This document shows, piece after piece, positions 19,355-54,907 of a stretch of DNA of 64,000 nt. The position numbers and the translations under genes are program-made. Under the pieces are notes generated by a model, which was given only the letters and a program-made list of their open reading frames with translations, ran no database searches and was not told the origin of the DNA. This DNA comes from Lysobacter sp. CFH 32150 (GTDB lineage: Bacteria > Pseudomonadota > Gammaproteobacteria > Xanthomonadales > Xanthomonadaceae), in contig NZ_JALDWJ010000008.1 of the NCBI RefSeq assembly GCF_022758295.1, positions 62,001 through 126,000 on the forward strand, in the 5' to 3' direction. The first letter of the stretch is position 1. The number at the start of each line of letters is the position of its first letter.

Positions 19355-19625
19355 TTAGGGCCAGTTAACGCATATGGAGCGGGTCGCGCCGGGCCTGAGC
19401 GCGTGCGAGGCAAGGAAGAGCGAGGGCGCGCATGCCGATACGCAACTGAGCGATGACGCGGCATCGCGTGCGCTCAGGCCCGGCCCTTCGGGTTGCTTCT
19501 CAGTGGCCGTCAGACGGCGCCGCGCGCCTTGGCCTTGCAAGCAGCAAGGCACTGCGTCGCGCAACACCGCCTGGCAGCCACTGAGAAGCAACGCGACCCG
19601 CTCCATATGTGTTAACTGGCCCTAA
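19355..19625. mobile_element. inverted-flank hairpin element, copy A
   Basis: A 271-bp non-coding unit. Outer arms at 19355-19388 and 19592-19625 are inverted repeats, 33 of 34 matching. The 203-bp core (19389-19591) holds two internal hairpins: CCGGGCCTGAGCGC pairing with GCGCTCAGGCCCGG, and GTTGCTTCTCAGTGGC pairing with GGC/GCCACTGAGAAGCAAC on the other side of the CCCTTCGGG turn. Copy B at 50245-50513 has a core of equal length in the opposite orientation and clearly alike in sequence; only the last 7 bp of the arms (GGTCGCG) are shared between copies. The right arm includes the trmB stop codon. No transposase is encoded; non-autonomous mobility is an inference. Confidence 0.7.
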
Positions 19626-21367: not shown

Positions 21368-21462
21368 CGGTACGCACAGAGCACACCCGGCGCAAGCCGG
21401 CGTCGCAAAGCTACGGGTCCCGGCGACTCCCCCCGCCGCGGATAGCCGGGTTCCCGTTACCG
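21368..21462 (+). promoter_or_regulatory. GEMM-I (cyclic-dinucleotide) riboswitch, first of tandem pair
   Basis: The stretch matches the GEMM-I layout: closing helix CGGTA (21368-21372) / TACCG (21458-21462), the core ACGCACAGAGCACACC, a CCGGC-GCAA-GCCGG hairpin with a GNRA tetraloop, the hallmark CGCAAAGC at 21404-21411, then CGGGTC...AGCCGGGTT. Known members bind c-di-GMP, or cGAMP in a variant class. By hand alignment to the Vibrio Vc2 aptamer, the ligand-contacting G20 is A here. Confidence 0.85.
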
Positions 21463-21490
21463 CCGGTGGTTCGCATCGCGCGGTCTTCAA

Positions 21491-21579
21491 CACTCAGGTC
21501 TCGTCAAACGCACACCCGGTGCAAACCGGGGCCGCAAAGCATCCGGGTGCCCTCCCAGGCACGGCTGAGCTACCGAGTG
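21491..21579 (+). promoter_or_regulatory. GEMM-I-like riboswitch, second of tandem pair
   Basis: A second aptamer follows 28 bp after the first. Closing helix CACTC (21491-21495) / GAGTG (21575-21579) with GGT/ACC continues it, then CGCACA, a CCCGGT-GCAA-ACCGGG hairpin with GNRA loop, CGCAAAGC at 21533-21540, a TGCC/GGCA hairpin and GGCTGAGCTACCGAG. It is more divergent than the first copy; the Vc2 G20 equivalent is C. Tandem aptamers are expected to sharpen the response or integrate two ligands. Confidence 0.75.
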
Positions 21580-33322: not shown

Positions 33323-33345
33323 GGAGTCCCTACTGCGGACTCGCA
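33323..33345 (-). promoter_or_regulatory. stem-loop between SAH aptamer and ahcY start
   Basis: GGGAGTCC / GGACTCGC forms a hairpin just downstream of the aptamer and 20 bp before the ahcY start. It is a candidate part of the expression platform; no U run follows, which fits translational control. Confidence 0.45.
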
Positions 33346-33350
33346 TTAAC

Positions 33351-33423
33351 GGGCGCCGTTGTTGCGTGGAACCTCGCCGAGCCTGGCCGTCCTTGCGACG
33401 GTCGCAGCGCCCCTCGGCGGGGC
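33351..33423 (-). promoter_or_regulatory. SAH riboswitch of ahcY
   Basis: On the - strand the sequence has GCCGAGGGGCGCTGCGACC, a variable hairpin, then GGCCAGGCTCGGC and AACAACGGCGCCC. This is the SAH-riboswitch consensus, including the pseudoknot pairing GGGCGC with GCGCCC and the P1 CCGAG/CTCGG helix. SAH binding normally switches ahcY on, clearing a product inhibitor of methyltransferases. Confidence 0.92.
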
Positions 33424-40913: not shown

Positions 40914-41452
40914 GTTGAAATTCCTCTTGCCGGATGGGTGATCAAGAGGAACGAAGGCAACCGCGTGAGCGAATCGCGTTGTTGTGAATCGCGCCGCGCG
41001 GTTTCGACCTTCGCCCCCACGGGCGAACCGGACACCGCGGGCAGGCAGGAACGACCGCACCGCCAGTCGTGGCGGCACATGCGGACGCTCCGGCGTTTCC
41101 CCGCGGAAACCCAGGTCGGACGACGCGCCTTGCACGCTTGCGCGTGTTGCGGCACGCCGGCCTGCGGCAGGTCTTCGGGCTCGTGGACACGAGGCGTTGT
41201 GGGCCTCACCTACTGTCCGTCGCTTCCCAGGCTTTCACCCAGTGCATGACGGAGGTCGTTTCCACATACCGCTGCGGGGCAGCCCCGGAATTGGCTCGAT
41301 GAGCCGCACCGGGTTCCCTCTTAGCTTTATCGCTCCATAAGGATTGAGCGATAAAGACCGCTGGCGAGGGGGAAGTTACGCGCGGCGAGGGGTTGCGTCA
41401 ATGCACCGATGCCGCGGGCATGCGGGCCGGGTAGGCATGAGCATACGAGGCC
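40914..41452 (-). other. 539-bp metE leader region
   Basis: No gene is visible. The right part is the cobalamin aptamer; the 250 bp between aptamer and metE are GC-rich with several possible stem-loops (for example GCACGCTTGCGCGTG near 41131-41145) that could form the expression platform. The left-most 90 bp to the dusB stop show nothing clear. Confidence 0.7.
41166..41366 (-). promoter_or_regulatory. cobalamin riboswitch of metE
   Basis: Read on the - strand: P1 half GGTCTTT, then AGAGGGAACCCGGTG, CCGGGGCTGCCCCGCAGCGG, CACTGGG, CCTGGGAAGC, ACAGTAGG and finally GAGCCCGAAGACCTGCC, whose GAAGACC re-pairs with GGTCTT. These are the B12-box elements in order. An 11-bp palindrome (CTTTATCGCTC / GAGCGATAAAG, 41324-41355) forms an extra hairpin between P1 and the core. 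Confidence 0.92.
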
Positions 41453-47775: not shown

Positions 47776-47779
47776 TTTT

Positions 47780-47929
47780 TGTAGGAGCGGCTTTCAGCCG
47801 CGAGCTTTGCGCTTGGGTTCGGGGAGGGCGAATGTATTCGCACGCCCTTTCGCTAATCGAACAGCGTGCGAATACATTCGCTCCCACAGGGGCAAGAACA
47901 AAAGCTCGCGGCTGCAAGCCGCTCCTACA
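47780..47929. repeat. nested inverted repeat with GTAGGAGCGGCTT arms
   Basis: Outer arms 47780-47808 and 47901-47929 match in 28 of 29 positions and carry the GTAGGAGCGGCTT-CAGCCGCGA unit. An inner pair at 47824-47845 and 47864-47885 is built around GCGAATGTATTCGCACGC. The unit lies between the convergent aldo/keto reductase and PDZ-protein genes. Confidence 0.8.
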
Positions 47930-47937
47930 AGAGGCGG

Positions 47938-49080
47938 TCAGCGTGCTTCGACTTGGATCTCGATGATCTCCGGCGCCTCGGGTGGCAGCGGCGCCTCCGG
48001 CGCGAAGGCCATGGCCGGCGCCTCACCGTTGAGGATGATTTCGTGCTCGAACGCCGTGCCCGGCGGTGGAGGCGGTGGCGCTGGCGCTCTCGGCGCCACT
48101 GGCGGTGCGGGCGGAGTTGGCGGCAGCGGTATGCGGGGCAGCGCTTTCGGCACCTTGAGCTTGGTGCTGGCCGATTTGCGATCTCGCAGATAATCGATCG
48201 CGACCAGGCTATCGGCGGGCTTGCCGCGCAATGCGGCCATCGTTTCGCGCGGTGAGTTCACCGTTTTGCCATCGACTTTGTGGATCACGTCGCCGGCTTG
48301 CAGTCCGGCCAGGTCCGGGCCGGTGCTCAGCACCAGCACGCCGCGGGTGGTTCCGAAGTAGCGACCGAGTTTAGGGTCGATCGAGGCGAGGTTGAGGCCG
48401 TTCCAGCGGAAGGCTTCGGCCAGCACTTTGCAGTTGTCGCCCCTGCAATGCCCTTCGGGGCCCATCGTGATGATTTCGGTACGGATGTCCGGATCGATGC
48501 CGAGCGGCCGGGGAAGGCTTAATGCGATCGGCGCACCGCGGCGCATGACGGCGACCTGTCGGTCCAGCGTCGGCGTGACCTTGGTGACCACGGTCTTGCC
48601 GTCGCGCAAGGTGACCAGCTTCACTTCGGTCCTGGTATCCAGGTTGCCGAGCAACTTGCGTGCGTTCTCGACCCGCAGTTCGCCATCGCTACCGAGCACC
48701 TGCACGCCATTGATGCTGACGATGCGTTCGCCACTGCGTAGTCCCGCTTTCGCTGCGGCACTGTCGGGCGTGACCCCGGCGATGCGGACGCCAGCGCGTT
48801 CGTCCGGGGCAAGCAGCACGCCGATCACCGGCTTGCGGACCATGCGGCGCTCGACGCGTCGGATGTCCTCGTCTTCATGGCCAAGCTGGTGCGAGAGTTC
48901 CGCCACGCGGCGCGCAGCGCGGTCCAGGTCGCGCCGCGCAGCGTCGAGTTCGGACTGCGCCGCGGCATCGGCCTTGGGGGTTGGTTTCGGCGTCGGCGTT
49001 TGCGCCGACGCGATGCCGCTGCCGAGGAGCAGGGCCAGAGCAAGGCCGAGTGCGGCCGGTTTCGGAGCGAAGGACTTCAT
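47938..49080 (-). CDS. exported double-PDZ protein with Pro-rich tail
   Basis: A 380-residue protein with a signal peptide (about 1-26, 'LGLALALLLGSGIASAQTPT'). A short coiled-coil (about 38-75) is followed by a PDZ domain (about 85-165, 'AGVTPDSAAAKAGLRSGERI') and a second one (about 240-310, 'GTTRGVLVLSTGPDLAGLQA'). The last 70 residues are rich in Pro and Ala. There is no protease domain, so it is a PDZ adaptor, not DegP/DegS. ATG at 49080 is preferred (GAGG 5 bases upstream). Third gene of the sigma/anti-sigma-like operon, so it may be part of an envelope-stress circuit. Confidence 0.8.
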   Translation of the reverse strand: MKSFAPKPAALGLALALLLGSGIASAQTPTPKPTPKADAAAQSELDAARRDLDRAARRVAELSHQLGHEDEDIRRVERRMVRKPVIGVLLAPDERAGVRIAGVTPDSAAAKAGLRSGERIVSINGVQVLGSDGELRVENARKLLGNLDTRTEVKLVTLRDGKTVVTKVTPTLDRQVAVMRRGAPIALSLPRPLGIDPDIRTEIITMGPEGHCRGDNCKVLAEAFRWNGLNLASIDPKLGRYFGTTRGVLVLSTGPDLAGLQAGDVIHKVDGKTVNSPRETMAALRGKPADSLVAIDYLRDRKSASTKLKVPKALPRIPLPPTPPAPPVAPRAPAPPPPPPGTAFEHEIILNGEAPAMAFAPEAPLPPEAPEIIEIQVEAR

Positions 49081-49146
49081 ATCGACCTCGTGCATGGATG
49101 GATCACGATTCAAGAGATGATCGAAGCGCCGCAAACGTCGCAGCCG

Positions 49147-49689
49147 TCAATCGACCAAGGCCAAGGCGCCGTCGTAACGCTCGCCTTGCGCGGCCAACCA
49201 GCGGCGCGTGCCTTCGAAACCCACCACCGCACGCAGGGCTTCGACGCGATCGCGCCATAACGCCAGTTGCCGCGCGGGTGGCAGGTCCGGCTGCATCAGC
49301 GCGGCATCGATGCTGGCGAGCTGCCGGTCGAGGTCGCCCGCCATTGCGGCCGCGCTGCCGCTCGACACGCGCTCGTCGCGCGCCATCGCCAGCAGGGCCT
49401 CGAGTTGGGCGGATTCGGCATACAACTGTTCGAGTGAATCGGTGGTCGCGACGATTGCAGGCTTGGCAGGGGTATGCGGGGCGAGATCTGTGGAGCGCTG
49501 GCCAATGCGCCACGGCAGGGCGATGGCGAGCAGCAGCGCGGCCGCGGTCGCCAGCCACATCGGCCAGCGTGCGCGCTTGCGCGCGTCGAGCCGGGCAGCG
49601 ACACGCGACCAACCGTCTGTCGCCGGTTGCTCCAGGGGCAAGGCGGCGAAGGCGTCACTCCATTGCTTGGGTGTTCGTGTGTCAGACAT
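49147..49689 (-). CDS. single-pass membrane protein, probable anti-sigma factor
   Basis: A 180-residue protein with an N-terminal soluble segment ('MSDTRTPKQWSDAFAALPLE'), one membrane helix at about 43-62 ('PMWLATAAALLLAIALPWRI') and a periplasmic helical domain. No zinc-binding motif is seen. Its start overlaps the end of the ECF sigma gene by 8 nt, and the topology (cytoplasmic N-terminus, single helix, periplasmic sensor part) is typical of anti-sigma factors. Family not recognised; role inferred from context. Confidence 0.65.
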   Translation of the reverse strand: MSDTRTPKQWSDAFAALPLEQPATDGWSRVAARLDARKRARWPMWLATAAALLLAIALPWRIGQRSTDLAPHTPAKPAIVATTDSLEQLYAESAQLEALLAMARDERVSSGSAAAMAGDLDRQLASIDAALMQPDLPPARQLALWRDRVEALRAVVGFEGTRRWLAAQGERYDGALALVD

Positions 49690-50260
49690 GGATCGGCTCC
49701 GGTACATCGAGCAGCACGCGCAGGCGACGGGTGCCGCGCGCGAGCTGCGATTTGGAGAAGCTGGCAGTGCGTTCCATCAGCACCGCGATCTCCTCGTGGG
49801 TATAGCCTTCGGCGTGGTACAGCCACAGCACGCTGCGCGTGGCGACGGGCAGGGTGGCGAGCGCGCGTTGCAGTGCGGCGGCGTCCGCTGCTGCCGGCGG
49901 TAACGGGCCGTGGTCCTCGGCGAAATCGTCATCGCACTCGACCGCGACTTCGTGCGCGAACTTGCGATCCTTGCGCAGCCGCATCAGTGCCTCGTTGACC
50001 GCGATCTGCCGCAGCCAGCCCCAGAACGGGCTGCCATTCGAACCACGGAATTCCCGGATCCGCCCAAGCACCTTCAACATCGTTTCCTGCAACACGTCCT
50101 GCGCTTCCTCGCGGTTGCCGGCGATGCGCAGCGCCAGCGTGAATACCGGCCGCTCGAACCAGCGGTACAGCTGCTCGAACGCCGCCCGCTCGCCGGCTCG
50201 CGCGCGGGCAAGCAGGGCGTCGGGCACCTCGATCGCGAAGCTGGAAGGAGCTGATGACAT
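49682..50260 (-). CDS. ECF-type RNA polymerase sigma factor
   Basis: The 192-residue sigma factor has region 2 ('AFEQLYRWFERPVFTLALRI', 'DVLQETMLKVLGRI', 'PFWGWLRQIAVNEALMRLRK') and region 4 ('LPVATRSVLWLYHAEGYTHE', 'EIAVLMERTASFSKSQLARG') joined by a short acidic linker. It would direct polymerase to a small stress regulon. The predicted ATG at 50260 and the first codons lie within the left arm of the inverted-flank element, and no ribosome site is visible upstream of it, so the start and its promoter may have been altered by the element. Confidence 0.88.
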   Translation of the reverse strand: MSSAPSSFAIEVPDALLARARAGERAAFEQLYRWFERPVFTLALRIAGNREEAQDVLQETMLKVLGRIREFRGSNGSPFWGWLRQIAVNEALMRLRKDRKFAHEVAVECDDDFAEDHGPLPPAAADAAALQRALATLPVATRSVLWLYHAEGYTHEEIAVLMERTASFSKSQLARGTRRLRVLLDVPEPIHV

Positions 50261-50513
50261 GGGCGAAGTAGGTCGCGTTGCTCTTCAGTGGCCGCCAGGT
50301 GGTGGTGCGTGCCGCAGCGCCTTGCTGGCTGCAAGGTCAAGGCGCGCGGCGCCGCATGGTGGCCACTGAGGAGCAACCCGAAGGGCCGGGCCTGAGGACG
50401 CGCGATGCCGCGTCATCGCTCGGTTGCGTATCGACATACGCGTCCTCGCTCTTCCTTGCCTCGCACGCCCTCAGGCCCGGCGCGACCTACTTCGCCCATG
50501 TCATCAGCTCCTT
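50245..50513. mobile_element. inverted-flank hairpin element, copy B
   Basis: A 269-bp unit. Arms 50245-50277 and 50481-50513 are perfect 33-bp inverted repeats; the core 50278-50480 is 203 bp, equal in length to that of copy A and in the opposite orientation. The inner hairpins are conserved with compensated changes. The outer 26 bp of the arms differ completely from copy A and match the local sequence at the start of the ECF sigma gene, including its ATG and first five codons. No protein is encoded. Confidence 0.7.
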
Positions 50514-50568
50514 TGGCCATGTATCGAGTCTAGATGCGCGCCGGACGGAAACGGTCGCAGCCTGCCCC

Positions 50569-50601: not shown

Positions 50602-51552
50602 ATGACTGGATCGCTGCTTGCCATCGTCCTGCTAGTCGCCGGTGTCGTCGTCCTGTTCAAGGCCGTGCGCATGGTGCCGCAGGGCTACGAATGGACCGTC
50701 GAGGCCTTCGGCAAATACACCCATACGCTGACTCCGGGCCTGCATTTCCTGGTGCCGATCTACCAGGGCGTCGGGCGCAAGATCAACATGATGGAACAGG
50801 TGCTCGAAGTGCCGTCGCAGGACGTGATCACCAAGGACAACGCGGTGGTGAAGGTCGACGGCATCGTGTTCTTTTCGGTGCTGGATGCCGCCAAGGCCGC
50901 ATACGAGGTCGCGCAGCTGGAAGTGGCGGTCCTCAACCTGGTGATGACCAATATCCGTACCTCGATCGGTTCGCTGGACCTGGACGAGTCGCTGTCCAAA
51001 CGCGACGAGATCAACGCCAAGGTGCTGCTGGCGGTGGATGCCGCGACGCATCCGTGGGGGCTCAAGGTCAACCGCATCGAGCTGAAGGACATCCAGCCGC
51101 CGCGCGACCTGGTCGATTCGATGGCGCGACAGATGAAAGCCGAGCGCGAGAAGCGCGCCAACATCCTCGAAGCCGAGGGTTTCCGCCAGGCGGCGATCCT
51201 CAAGGCCGAGGGCGAGAAGCAGTCGGTGATCCTCGAAGCCGAAGGCAACAAGGAGGCCGCGTTCCGCGCTGCTGAAGCGCGCGAGCGTCTCGCCGCCGCC
51301 GAAGCCAAGGCGACCGAGCTGGTGTCGACCGCGATCGCGCAGGGCAACGTGCAGGCGATCAACTACTTCGTCGCGCAGAAGTACATCGAGGCGTTCAAGG
51401 CGCTGGCCGAGGCGCCGAACCAGAAGTTCGTGATGATGCCGATGGAGTCCGCCGGCGTGATCGGTTCGCTTGCCGGCATCGCCGAACTGGCCAAGGAAGC
51501 GATGGATCGCCAACCGAGCCGCACCGCGGTCGCGCCGCGCCAAGGGGGCTGA
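50602..51552 (+). CDS. SPFH/Band 7 membrane protein (QmcA-like)
   Basis: The 316-residue protein has an N-terminal membrane anchor (about 3-20), the SPFH domain ('VRMVPQGYEWTVEAFGKYTH', 'LTPGLHFLVPIYQGVGRKIN', 'DVITKDNAVVKVDGIVFFSV') and a long Ala/Glu coiled-coil (about 170-250). It forms inner-membrane scaffold rings in complex with FtsH in E. coli-type systems. The NfeD-family gene follows 4 bp downstream, the usual pairing. Confidence 0.9.
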   Translation: MTGSLLAIVLLVAGVVVLFKAVRMVPQGYEWTVEAFGKYTHTLTPGLHFLVPIYQGVGRKINMMEQVLEVPSQDVITKDNAVVKVDGIVFFSVLDAAKAAYEVAQLEVAVLNLVMTNIRTSIGSLDLDESLSKRDEINAKVLLAVDAATHPWGLKVNRIELKDIQPPRDLVDSMARQMKAEREKRANILEAEGFRQAAILKAEGEKQSVILEAEGNKEAAFRAAEARERLAAAEAKATELVSTAIAQGNVQAINYFVAQKYIEAFKALAEAPNQKFVMMPMESAGVIGSLAGIAELAKEAMDRQPSRTAVAPRQGG

Positions 51553-54475: not shown

Positions 54476-54907
54476 ATGGCCGTTAAGAAAGCTGCGAAGA
54501 AGAAACCTGCTGCCAAGAAGGCAGCCAAGAAGACCGCCAAGAAGTCGGCGGCCAAGAAGACCGTCAAGAAGGGCGCCAAGAAGGCTGCCAAGAAGACCGT
54601 GAAGAAGGCTGCCAAGAAGGTCGCGCGCAAGCCGGCTAAGAAGGCTGCCAAGAAGACCGCCAAGAAGGCTGCCAAGAAGACTGCTAAGCGTCCTGCCAAG
54701 AAGGCCGCGAAGAAGACTGCCAAGAAGGCTGCCAAGAAGACTGCTAAGCGTCCTGCCAAGAAGGCCGCGAAGAAGACTGCCAAGAAGGCTGCGAAGAAGA
54801 AGCCTGCTGCGAAGAAGGCCGCCAAGAAGCCTGCAGCGAAGAAGAAGAAGGCAGCCCGAAAGGCTGCGCCGGTGGCGATGCCCGCCCCCGTTATGCCAAT
54901 GATGTAA
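54476..54907 (+). CDS. histone H1-like DNA-binding protein
   Basis: The 143-residue protein is almost entirely Lys and Ala in repeating KKAAKKT/KKPAAKK units, like the C-terminal tail of eukaryotic histone H1 and bacterial AlgP/HctB-type proteins, and ends with a hydrophobic 'VAMPAPVMPMM'. It should bind DNA non-specifically and compact the nucleoid. The coding sequence contains a perfect 60-bp tandem duplication (54661-54720 and 54721-54780), so length may vary between strains. A GAGGAG ribosome site precedes the start. Confidence 0.9.
   Translation: MAVKKAAKKKPAAKKAAKKTAKKSAAKKTVKKGAKKAAKKTVKKAAKKVARKPAKKAAKKTAKKAAKKTAKRPAKKAAKKTAKKAAKKTAKRPAKKAAKKTAKKAAKKKPAAKKAAKKPAAKKKKAARKAAPVAMPAPVMPMM
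54661..54780 (+). repeat. perfect 60-bp tandem repeat inside the histone-like gene
   Basis: Bases 54661-54720 and 54721-54780 are identical, coding for 20 residues each. Perfect identity at silent positions implies a recent duplication or ongoing slippage/recombination. Confidence 0.95.

Follow-up and report, generated by a model that had tools for sequence, protein, structure and literature searches.

A probable IS5-type MITE at the start codon and leader of an ECF sigma factor gene in Lysobacter sp. CFH 32150

The palindrome that overlaps the beginning of an ECF sigma factor gene in Lysobacter sp. CFH 32150 is in our reading, to which we give a probability of about 85%, an IS5-type MITE that was mobilized in trans, that is likely to lower or condition expression of the sigma gene, and whose two arms are probably kept complementary by template switching. 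It is one of two copies (copy A and copy B) in the window, which is the whole 64,000-nucleotide stretch of contig NZ_JALDWJ010000008.1 that was analyzed, and the features of both copies and of the sigma locus are collected in Table 1. According to this reading, an IS5-type MITE has taken over both start codon and leader in a stress sigma factor gene. A parent IS is identified for a repeat of which no earlier description was found in the open-licence literature. The approximately 90 copies in one bacterial order, with arms that vary between copies and are complementary within each, form a natural data set that allows a direct test of DNA template switching against selection that keeps palindromes perfect.

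Table 1. Positions in the window of the element copies, their parts, and the genes and promoter of the sigma locus
Feature	Position	Strand	Remarks
MITE copy B	50245..50513	+ (hairpin 1 first; sigma gene antiparallel)	33/33 arms; homologous to ~15 full-length genome copies
Copy B left arm	50245..50277	+	Terminal inverted repeat and covarying inner part
Copy B right arm	50481..50513	-	Perfect inverted copy of left arm
Copy A	19357..19623	-	Orientation opposite to copy B; between two minus-strand genes; empty site in relatives
Hairpin 1	50277..50377	+	Stem covaries; the + strand has several conserved G-U pairs
Junction CCGAAGGG, part of CCCGAAGGG	50378..50385	+	Conserved mini-hairpin
Hairpin 2	50385..50480	+	Internal loop GTCATC..CTC / CTCGCTCTTCCTTGCC, strongly conserved; small GTATCGACATAC hairpin
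ECF sigma factor, 192 aa, intact	49682..50260	-	Pfam Sigma70_r2, r4_2; best orthologs 60-82% identical
Probable anti-sigma factor, overlapping the sigma gene downstream	49147..49707	-	Assigned from its position alone; Pfam gave no match
PDZ-domain protein, third gene of apparent operon	47938..49134	-	Pfam
SPFH/Band_7 gene, divergent, NfeD gene next	50602..51552	+	Upstream side uninterrupted
Ancestral sigma promoter TGCGACCGTTT...GCATC	50530..50559	-	Gene body moved 269 nt away by the insertion
Old sigma start (50518-50520) and frame into element, 35 codons to TGA	50413..50520	-	Probable start, from promoter spacing in relatives

In the case of copy B, the canonical unit of 267 nt runs from the outermost A to the outermost T at 50246-50512, and the perfect palindrome of the original prediction is recovered, with arms at 50245-50277 and 50481-50513 that are complementary at 33/33 positions around a core of 203 nt. 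The palindrome is far beyond chance in dinucleotide shuffles (z = -15.2 for DNA and -12.6 for RNA). The cores of the two copies had been described as equal in length and reversed in orientation; the copies do lie in opposite orientation, both are 267 nt, and their 217-nt centers are 89% identical. The arms of copy A are 32 nt long with one mismatch, and its TAG end terminates the upstream gene.

When the 217-nt center was used as a query against its own genome, 31 matches with unrelated flanks were obtained, approximately 15 of them full length, and alignment of the full-length copies together with their flanks gave arms of about 32 nt that read (T)AGGGCCTGTTAAC, about a dozen variable bases, and GGTCGCG. 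The genome contains 35 occurrences of the end motif and 0 of the reversed control, and the same arm plan, including variants AGAGCCTGTTCAA, is found in other genera. The range of the element covers 73/297 sampled genomes of the family and 33/54 genera. In a genome scan with the internal loop of hairpin 2 as the pattern, the more than 100 stretches among the matches listed belong to Lysobacter, Luteimonas, Dyella, Rhodanobacter, Pseudoxanthomonas, Xanthomonas, and other Lysobacterales. Phage and plasmid collections and IMG/VR viral contigs contained no copies. At 15 of approximately 60 gene-end sides, the adjoining gene takes its stop codon from the terminal TAG of the element, which would fit a CTAG/YTAR target preference and tolerance of the element at gene ends. 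One full-length pair (L006 and L008, G000:C7:172260-172476 and 172849-173065) lies approximately 370 bp apart in opposite orientation, and the copies L031, L050, and L190/L219 carry internal deletions of approximately 55-180 bp, with both ends kept and the palindrome preserved.

Comparison with element-free relatives indicates that the element was inserted as a whole unit. The sigma gene and its divergent SPFH neighbor are a conserved pair in most relatives examined, and the sigma upstream regions of 29 relatives contain neither the core nor the inverted arms; at the copy A site, the element is absent in approximately 28 relatives, where the two flanking genes are adjacent. Palindrome and core are thus missing together at both window copies, and no relative was seen that keeps the palindrome and lacks the core. 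At the sigma locus, the minus-strand order in the window is promoter (50559-50530), ATG (50520-50518), element, and then AGC TTC GCG ATC, with which the conserved body begins, and because the old promoter and ATG lie on the far side of the element and the conserved body lies past it, the insertion point is placed approximately two codons into the old reading frame. For a third copy, which belongs to another genus, the site is occupied in 2 genomes and empty in 18/20 congeners, and one empty allele, GACTACAACC, compared with the filled allele GACTA[GGACC...GGTCC]TACAACC gives a TA duplication. The left and right flanks of 87 copies have no identity beyond the shared TA preference that is clearly above shuffling, so that the case for TA duplication depends on this one dated insertion and on the parent IS. 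Copy B has no TA duplication, and its flanks share TGG.

The parent type is indicated by an 822-bp IS (L349/L347/L348), found in other genera of the family, which encodes a 265-aa transpos_IS5_3 transposase, is flanked by CTA and TAG, and begins TAGGGCCTGTTAACACAT, identical at 18/18 positions to the end of the element copy L004. On the basis of this identity between its outer 18 nt and an IS5-family IS end, the element is assigned as a MITE, a non-autonomous IS derivative; it is short, non-coding, and dispersed in multiple copies, it shares its terminal repeats with an IS, and it has empty sites at three loci. The likeness to IS elements of this group, among them the 822-bp IS and ISStma16-like elements, lies in the terminal 18 nt and in the CTA/TAG or TTA/TAA flanks, whereas the IS differs from the MITE in encoding a transposase, in its imperfect inverted repeats of approximately 14-18 nt, and in its dissimilar core. 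The ends of IS5 elements on plasmids from Xanthomonas and other genera, GARCCTGTTCA or GAGCCTGTTTA, are like those of diverged MITE copies.

In the mechanism that we propose, an IS5 transposase (NCBIfam transpos_IS5_3, NF033580 group) would mobilize the element in trans and would recognize ends T-A-GGGCCTGTTAAC, favoring CTAG/YTAR sites with TA duplication. The transpos_IS5_3 transposase is present in 127/297 family genomes (E<=0.001), with 43 above the curated cut-off. No transposase of the DDE_Tnp_1, DDE_3, or transpos_IS5_3 type was found in the CFH 32150 genome, and therefore either mobilization is no longer going on here or the draft assembly lacks the gene; the definition of a MITE does not demand a helper transposase in the host, as an old one may have lost its helper IS. 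Two other candidate parents were rejected. DDE_3 transposases of the IS630/Tc1 type are rare in the family and absent here, and no matching ends were found for them, and the IS in L315 has true ends GGAAGGTCTGAACAA, the similar end beside it being a remnant of another IS.

The sigma ATG (50258-50260) and the codons that follow it form the minus strand of the left arm (ATG TCA TCA GCT CCT) with an inverted copy in the right arm, just as had been noted, but the interpretation of the arms as inverted copies of the target gives way to one in which they are the element's own ends, with one consensus in approximately 90 copies and no counterpart in relatives. A process in which every insertion duplicates its target in inverted form, so that the arms would be host DNA copied in reverse across the element, is largely refuted by these comparisons, and we consider it very improbable. 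It would account for the presence of sigma codons in the arm, for the variation of arm sequence by locus, and for a 14-nt inverted copy of flanking DNA carried by L002, but not for a single arm-end consensus that matches an IS end at 18/18 positions, for a nearly constant arm length of 32-33 nt, or for the lack of the arm sequence in relatives. The ends of copy B are among the most diverged (4/94), and the outer 20 nt of its arm, taken alone and by simple identity, are no more like another copy than shuffled sequence is, which suits target duplication; for this outer arm, such a process would imply that the element-free sigma gene began GTCATCAGCTCCTTCC. Against this, the outer 14 nt fit the end profile in fixed register, with only 60/127,940 random windows scoring as high, and the whole arm agrees at 24/33 positions with a copy in another genus (maximum 22 in 60 shuffles). 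Even with the outer 20 nt indistinct by simple identity, a host origin for the outermost part of the copy B arm is judged to be unlikely.

The consensus fold consists of a 32-bp terminal stem that encloses hairpin 1, the conserved CCCGAAGGG, and hairpin 2 with its highly conserved internal loop. Among 25 copies, 97.8% of the arm pairs are standard pairs and 26/32 pairs have changed on both sides (0/500 shuffles), and when the partner arm is slid by 1-3 columns, pairing falls to 32-40%. Covariation of this kind could be produced in the arms by homogenization at the DNA level, and it is therefore not specific to RNA there. Template switching is known to homogenize inverted arms and to extend stems (PMC8794818). 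In L002 (G000:C13:189353-189569), the palindrome runs perfectly for 14 nt past the element ends (GCAACGCCGCACC...) as an inverted host copy, and because arm homogenization and this stem extension are what template switching predicts, it is the favored process for the arms. The likeness to the published template-switch hairpins (PMC8794818) lies in compensatory stem changes and in extension of the stem into the flanks, although those hairpins are in RNA genes, whereas the present case concerns the arms of a bacterial mobile element, for which the switches are inferred rather than reconstructed. The match between the arms of each copy is thus probably kept by template switching during replication, to which selection for a folded RNA or single-stranded DNA may or may not add.

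Selection on the fold could also be given the leading part, such that the element would be first of all a host RNA with a structure, or else a + strand RNA gene that is mobile, with a selected three-way-junction fold and with the IS5-like ends as its vehicle. Compensatory changes occur in 68/103 consensus pairs, and conservation is higher in unpaired than in paired columns (0.82 vs 0.75), both of which are in keeping with such a gene. Selection on one RNA strand predicts an excess of G-U over A-C mismatches, and among 94 copies this is seen only in hairpin 1 (219 G-U and 36 A-C on the + strand), so that no overall verdict for RNA follows; the arms (51 G-T and 66 A-C) and hairpin 2 (57 G-T and 94 A-C) have no + strand bias. 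Four to five + strand G-U pairs of hairpin 1 (alignment columns 57-71 with 100-114 in L001-L080) are kept in approximately 64-92% of copies, which is a sign that the + strand folds as a single strand, and hairpin 1 and the conserved loops may have a role as RNA or as single-stranded DNA. Orientation relative to tandem genes has no preference (24 vs 18), no Rfam family scores above the gathering threshold for the element (the weak microRNA-like scores being chance), and shortened copies persist, all of which argue against a structured RNA gene as the primary identity, an alternative that we regard as unlikely. Similarly doubtful is a composite in which a mobile element has a conserved fold of one strand as RNA or single-stranded DNA, its 32-bp ends co-evolve by template switching, giving every copy a perfectly self-complementary end sequence of its own, and the end at the sigma locus serves as both a start codon and a structural switch.

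The preferred reading, insertion of an IS5-type MITE, has direct implications for the sigma gene. The element had been predicted to occupy both the promoter and the leader; it does occupy the leader, but the promoter is intact just beyond the element at 50559-50530 on the minus strand. In 26/29 relatives, the promoter motif (TGCGA..TTn and a GCATC box) lies no more than 220 nt ahead of the SSFAI motif, in a coding region that continues ...SSFAIDV, and in the upstream regions of the sigma orthologs (L091-L119), TGCGACsnTTT and a GCATC box near the start codon are highly conserved across the family. This conserved promoter is probably an autoregulated ECF promoter with an mRNA that is leaderless or nearly so. 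The sole in-frame start of the sigma gene is now the ATG of the arm, and the claim that no ribosome site precedes it is upheld, as the sequence before this ATG (CGCGACCTACTTCGCCC) contains nothing like a Shine-Dalgarno site; such an absence is not peculiar to CFH 32150, since in relatives the interval between the GCATC box and the ATG is no longer than a few to some tens of bases. A consensus scan found no sigma-70 promoter or terminator inside the element. We infer that transcription of the sigma gene still begins at the old ECF promoter and reads through the element, so that the mRNA would carry a 269-nt palindromic leader with the start codon within a 33-bp duplex, and translation would begin at the ATG supplied by the element.

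The predicted fold of this mRNA (-222 kcal/mol, z = -12.6) pairs the start codon and the codons next to it within the terminal stem, and on this model the insertion likely lowers or conditions expression of the sigma gene and the downstream genes of the operon. Because the 5' leader of the operon is the inserted element and its start codon lies in a long perfect stem, control through RNA structure, as the original prediction proposed, appears plausible from the modeled fold. The intact sigma ORF argues either against complete silencing, with a sigma gene that remains functional, or for a recent insertion. One could go further and propose that copy B has been co-opted, with the displaced promoter and hairpin leader forming a regulated switch, for example one that works as a thermometer, through RNase III, or by antitermination. 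In favor of this, neither the sigma ORF nor its new start nor the old promoter is damaged, the copy B arms are perfect though far from consensus, and the minus strand of the right arm reads AAGGAG-N8-ATG, which shares its frame with the old start codon and serves the upstream 35-codon frame. We hold co-option to be distinctly unlikely, however, as it would rest on a single genome of its genus, and the stability of a perfect 33-bp stem is too great for a simple thermometer.

Several known families of short repeats invite comparison with the element. The bcr1 repeats of the Bacillus cereus group, ERIC/RU, and Correia elements are short, non-coding, intergenic, and mobile with a conserved structure, and REPs are served by Y1 (RAYT) transposases. 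The element resembles bcr1 (listed in PMC2267715), ERIC/RU, and Correia as a short mobile intergenic non-coding repeat with a conserved fold, and differs from them in sequence, in its Lysobacterales host range, in its parent IS, and in the 32-bp covarying terminal stem that encloses two hairpins. REP and REPIN sequences are likewise palindromic, dispersed, and intergenic, but REPs are 20-40 nt (PMC3733652), whereas the element is 267 nt, outside the REP size range, and has arms of 32-33 nt and DDE-type IS5 ends.

Other features were noted in the window. Positions 47779-47930, 3' of the PDZ gene in the sigma operon, contain inverted 30-nt repeats TTGTAGGAGCGGCTTTCAGCCGCGAGCTTT that are 97% complementary and REP-like. 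Rfam matches identify two tandem c-di-GMP-I riboswitch aptamers at 21370-21577 (+), a SAH riboswitch at 33344-33421 (-), and a cobalamin riboswitch at 41149-41377 (-). Finally, a 143-aa histone-H1-like protein with AAKK/TAKK repeats that derive from 12-nt units is encoded at 54476-54907 (+).
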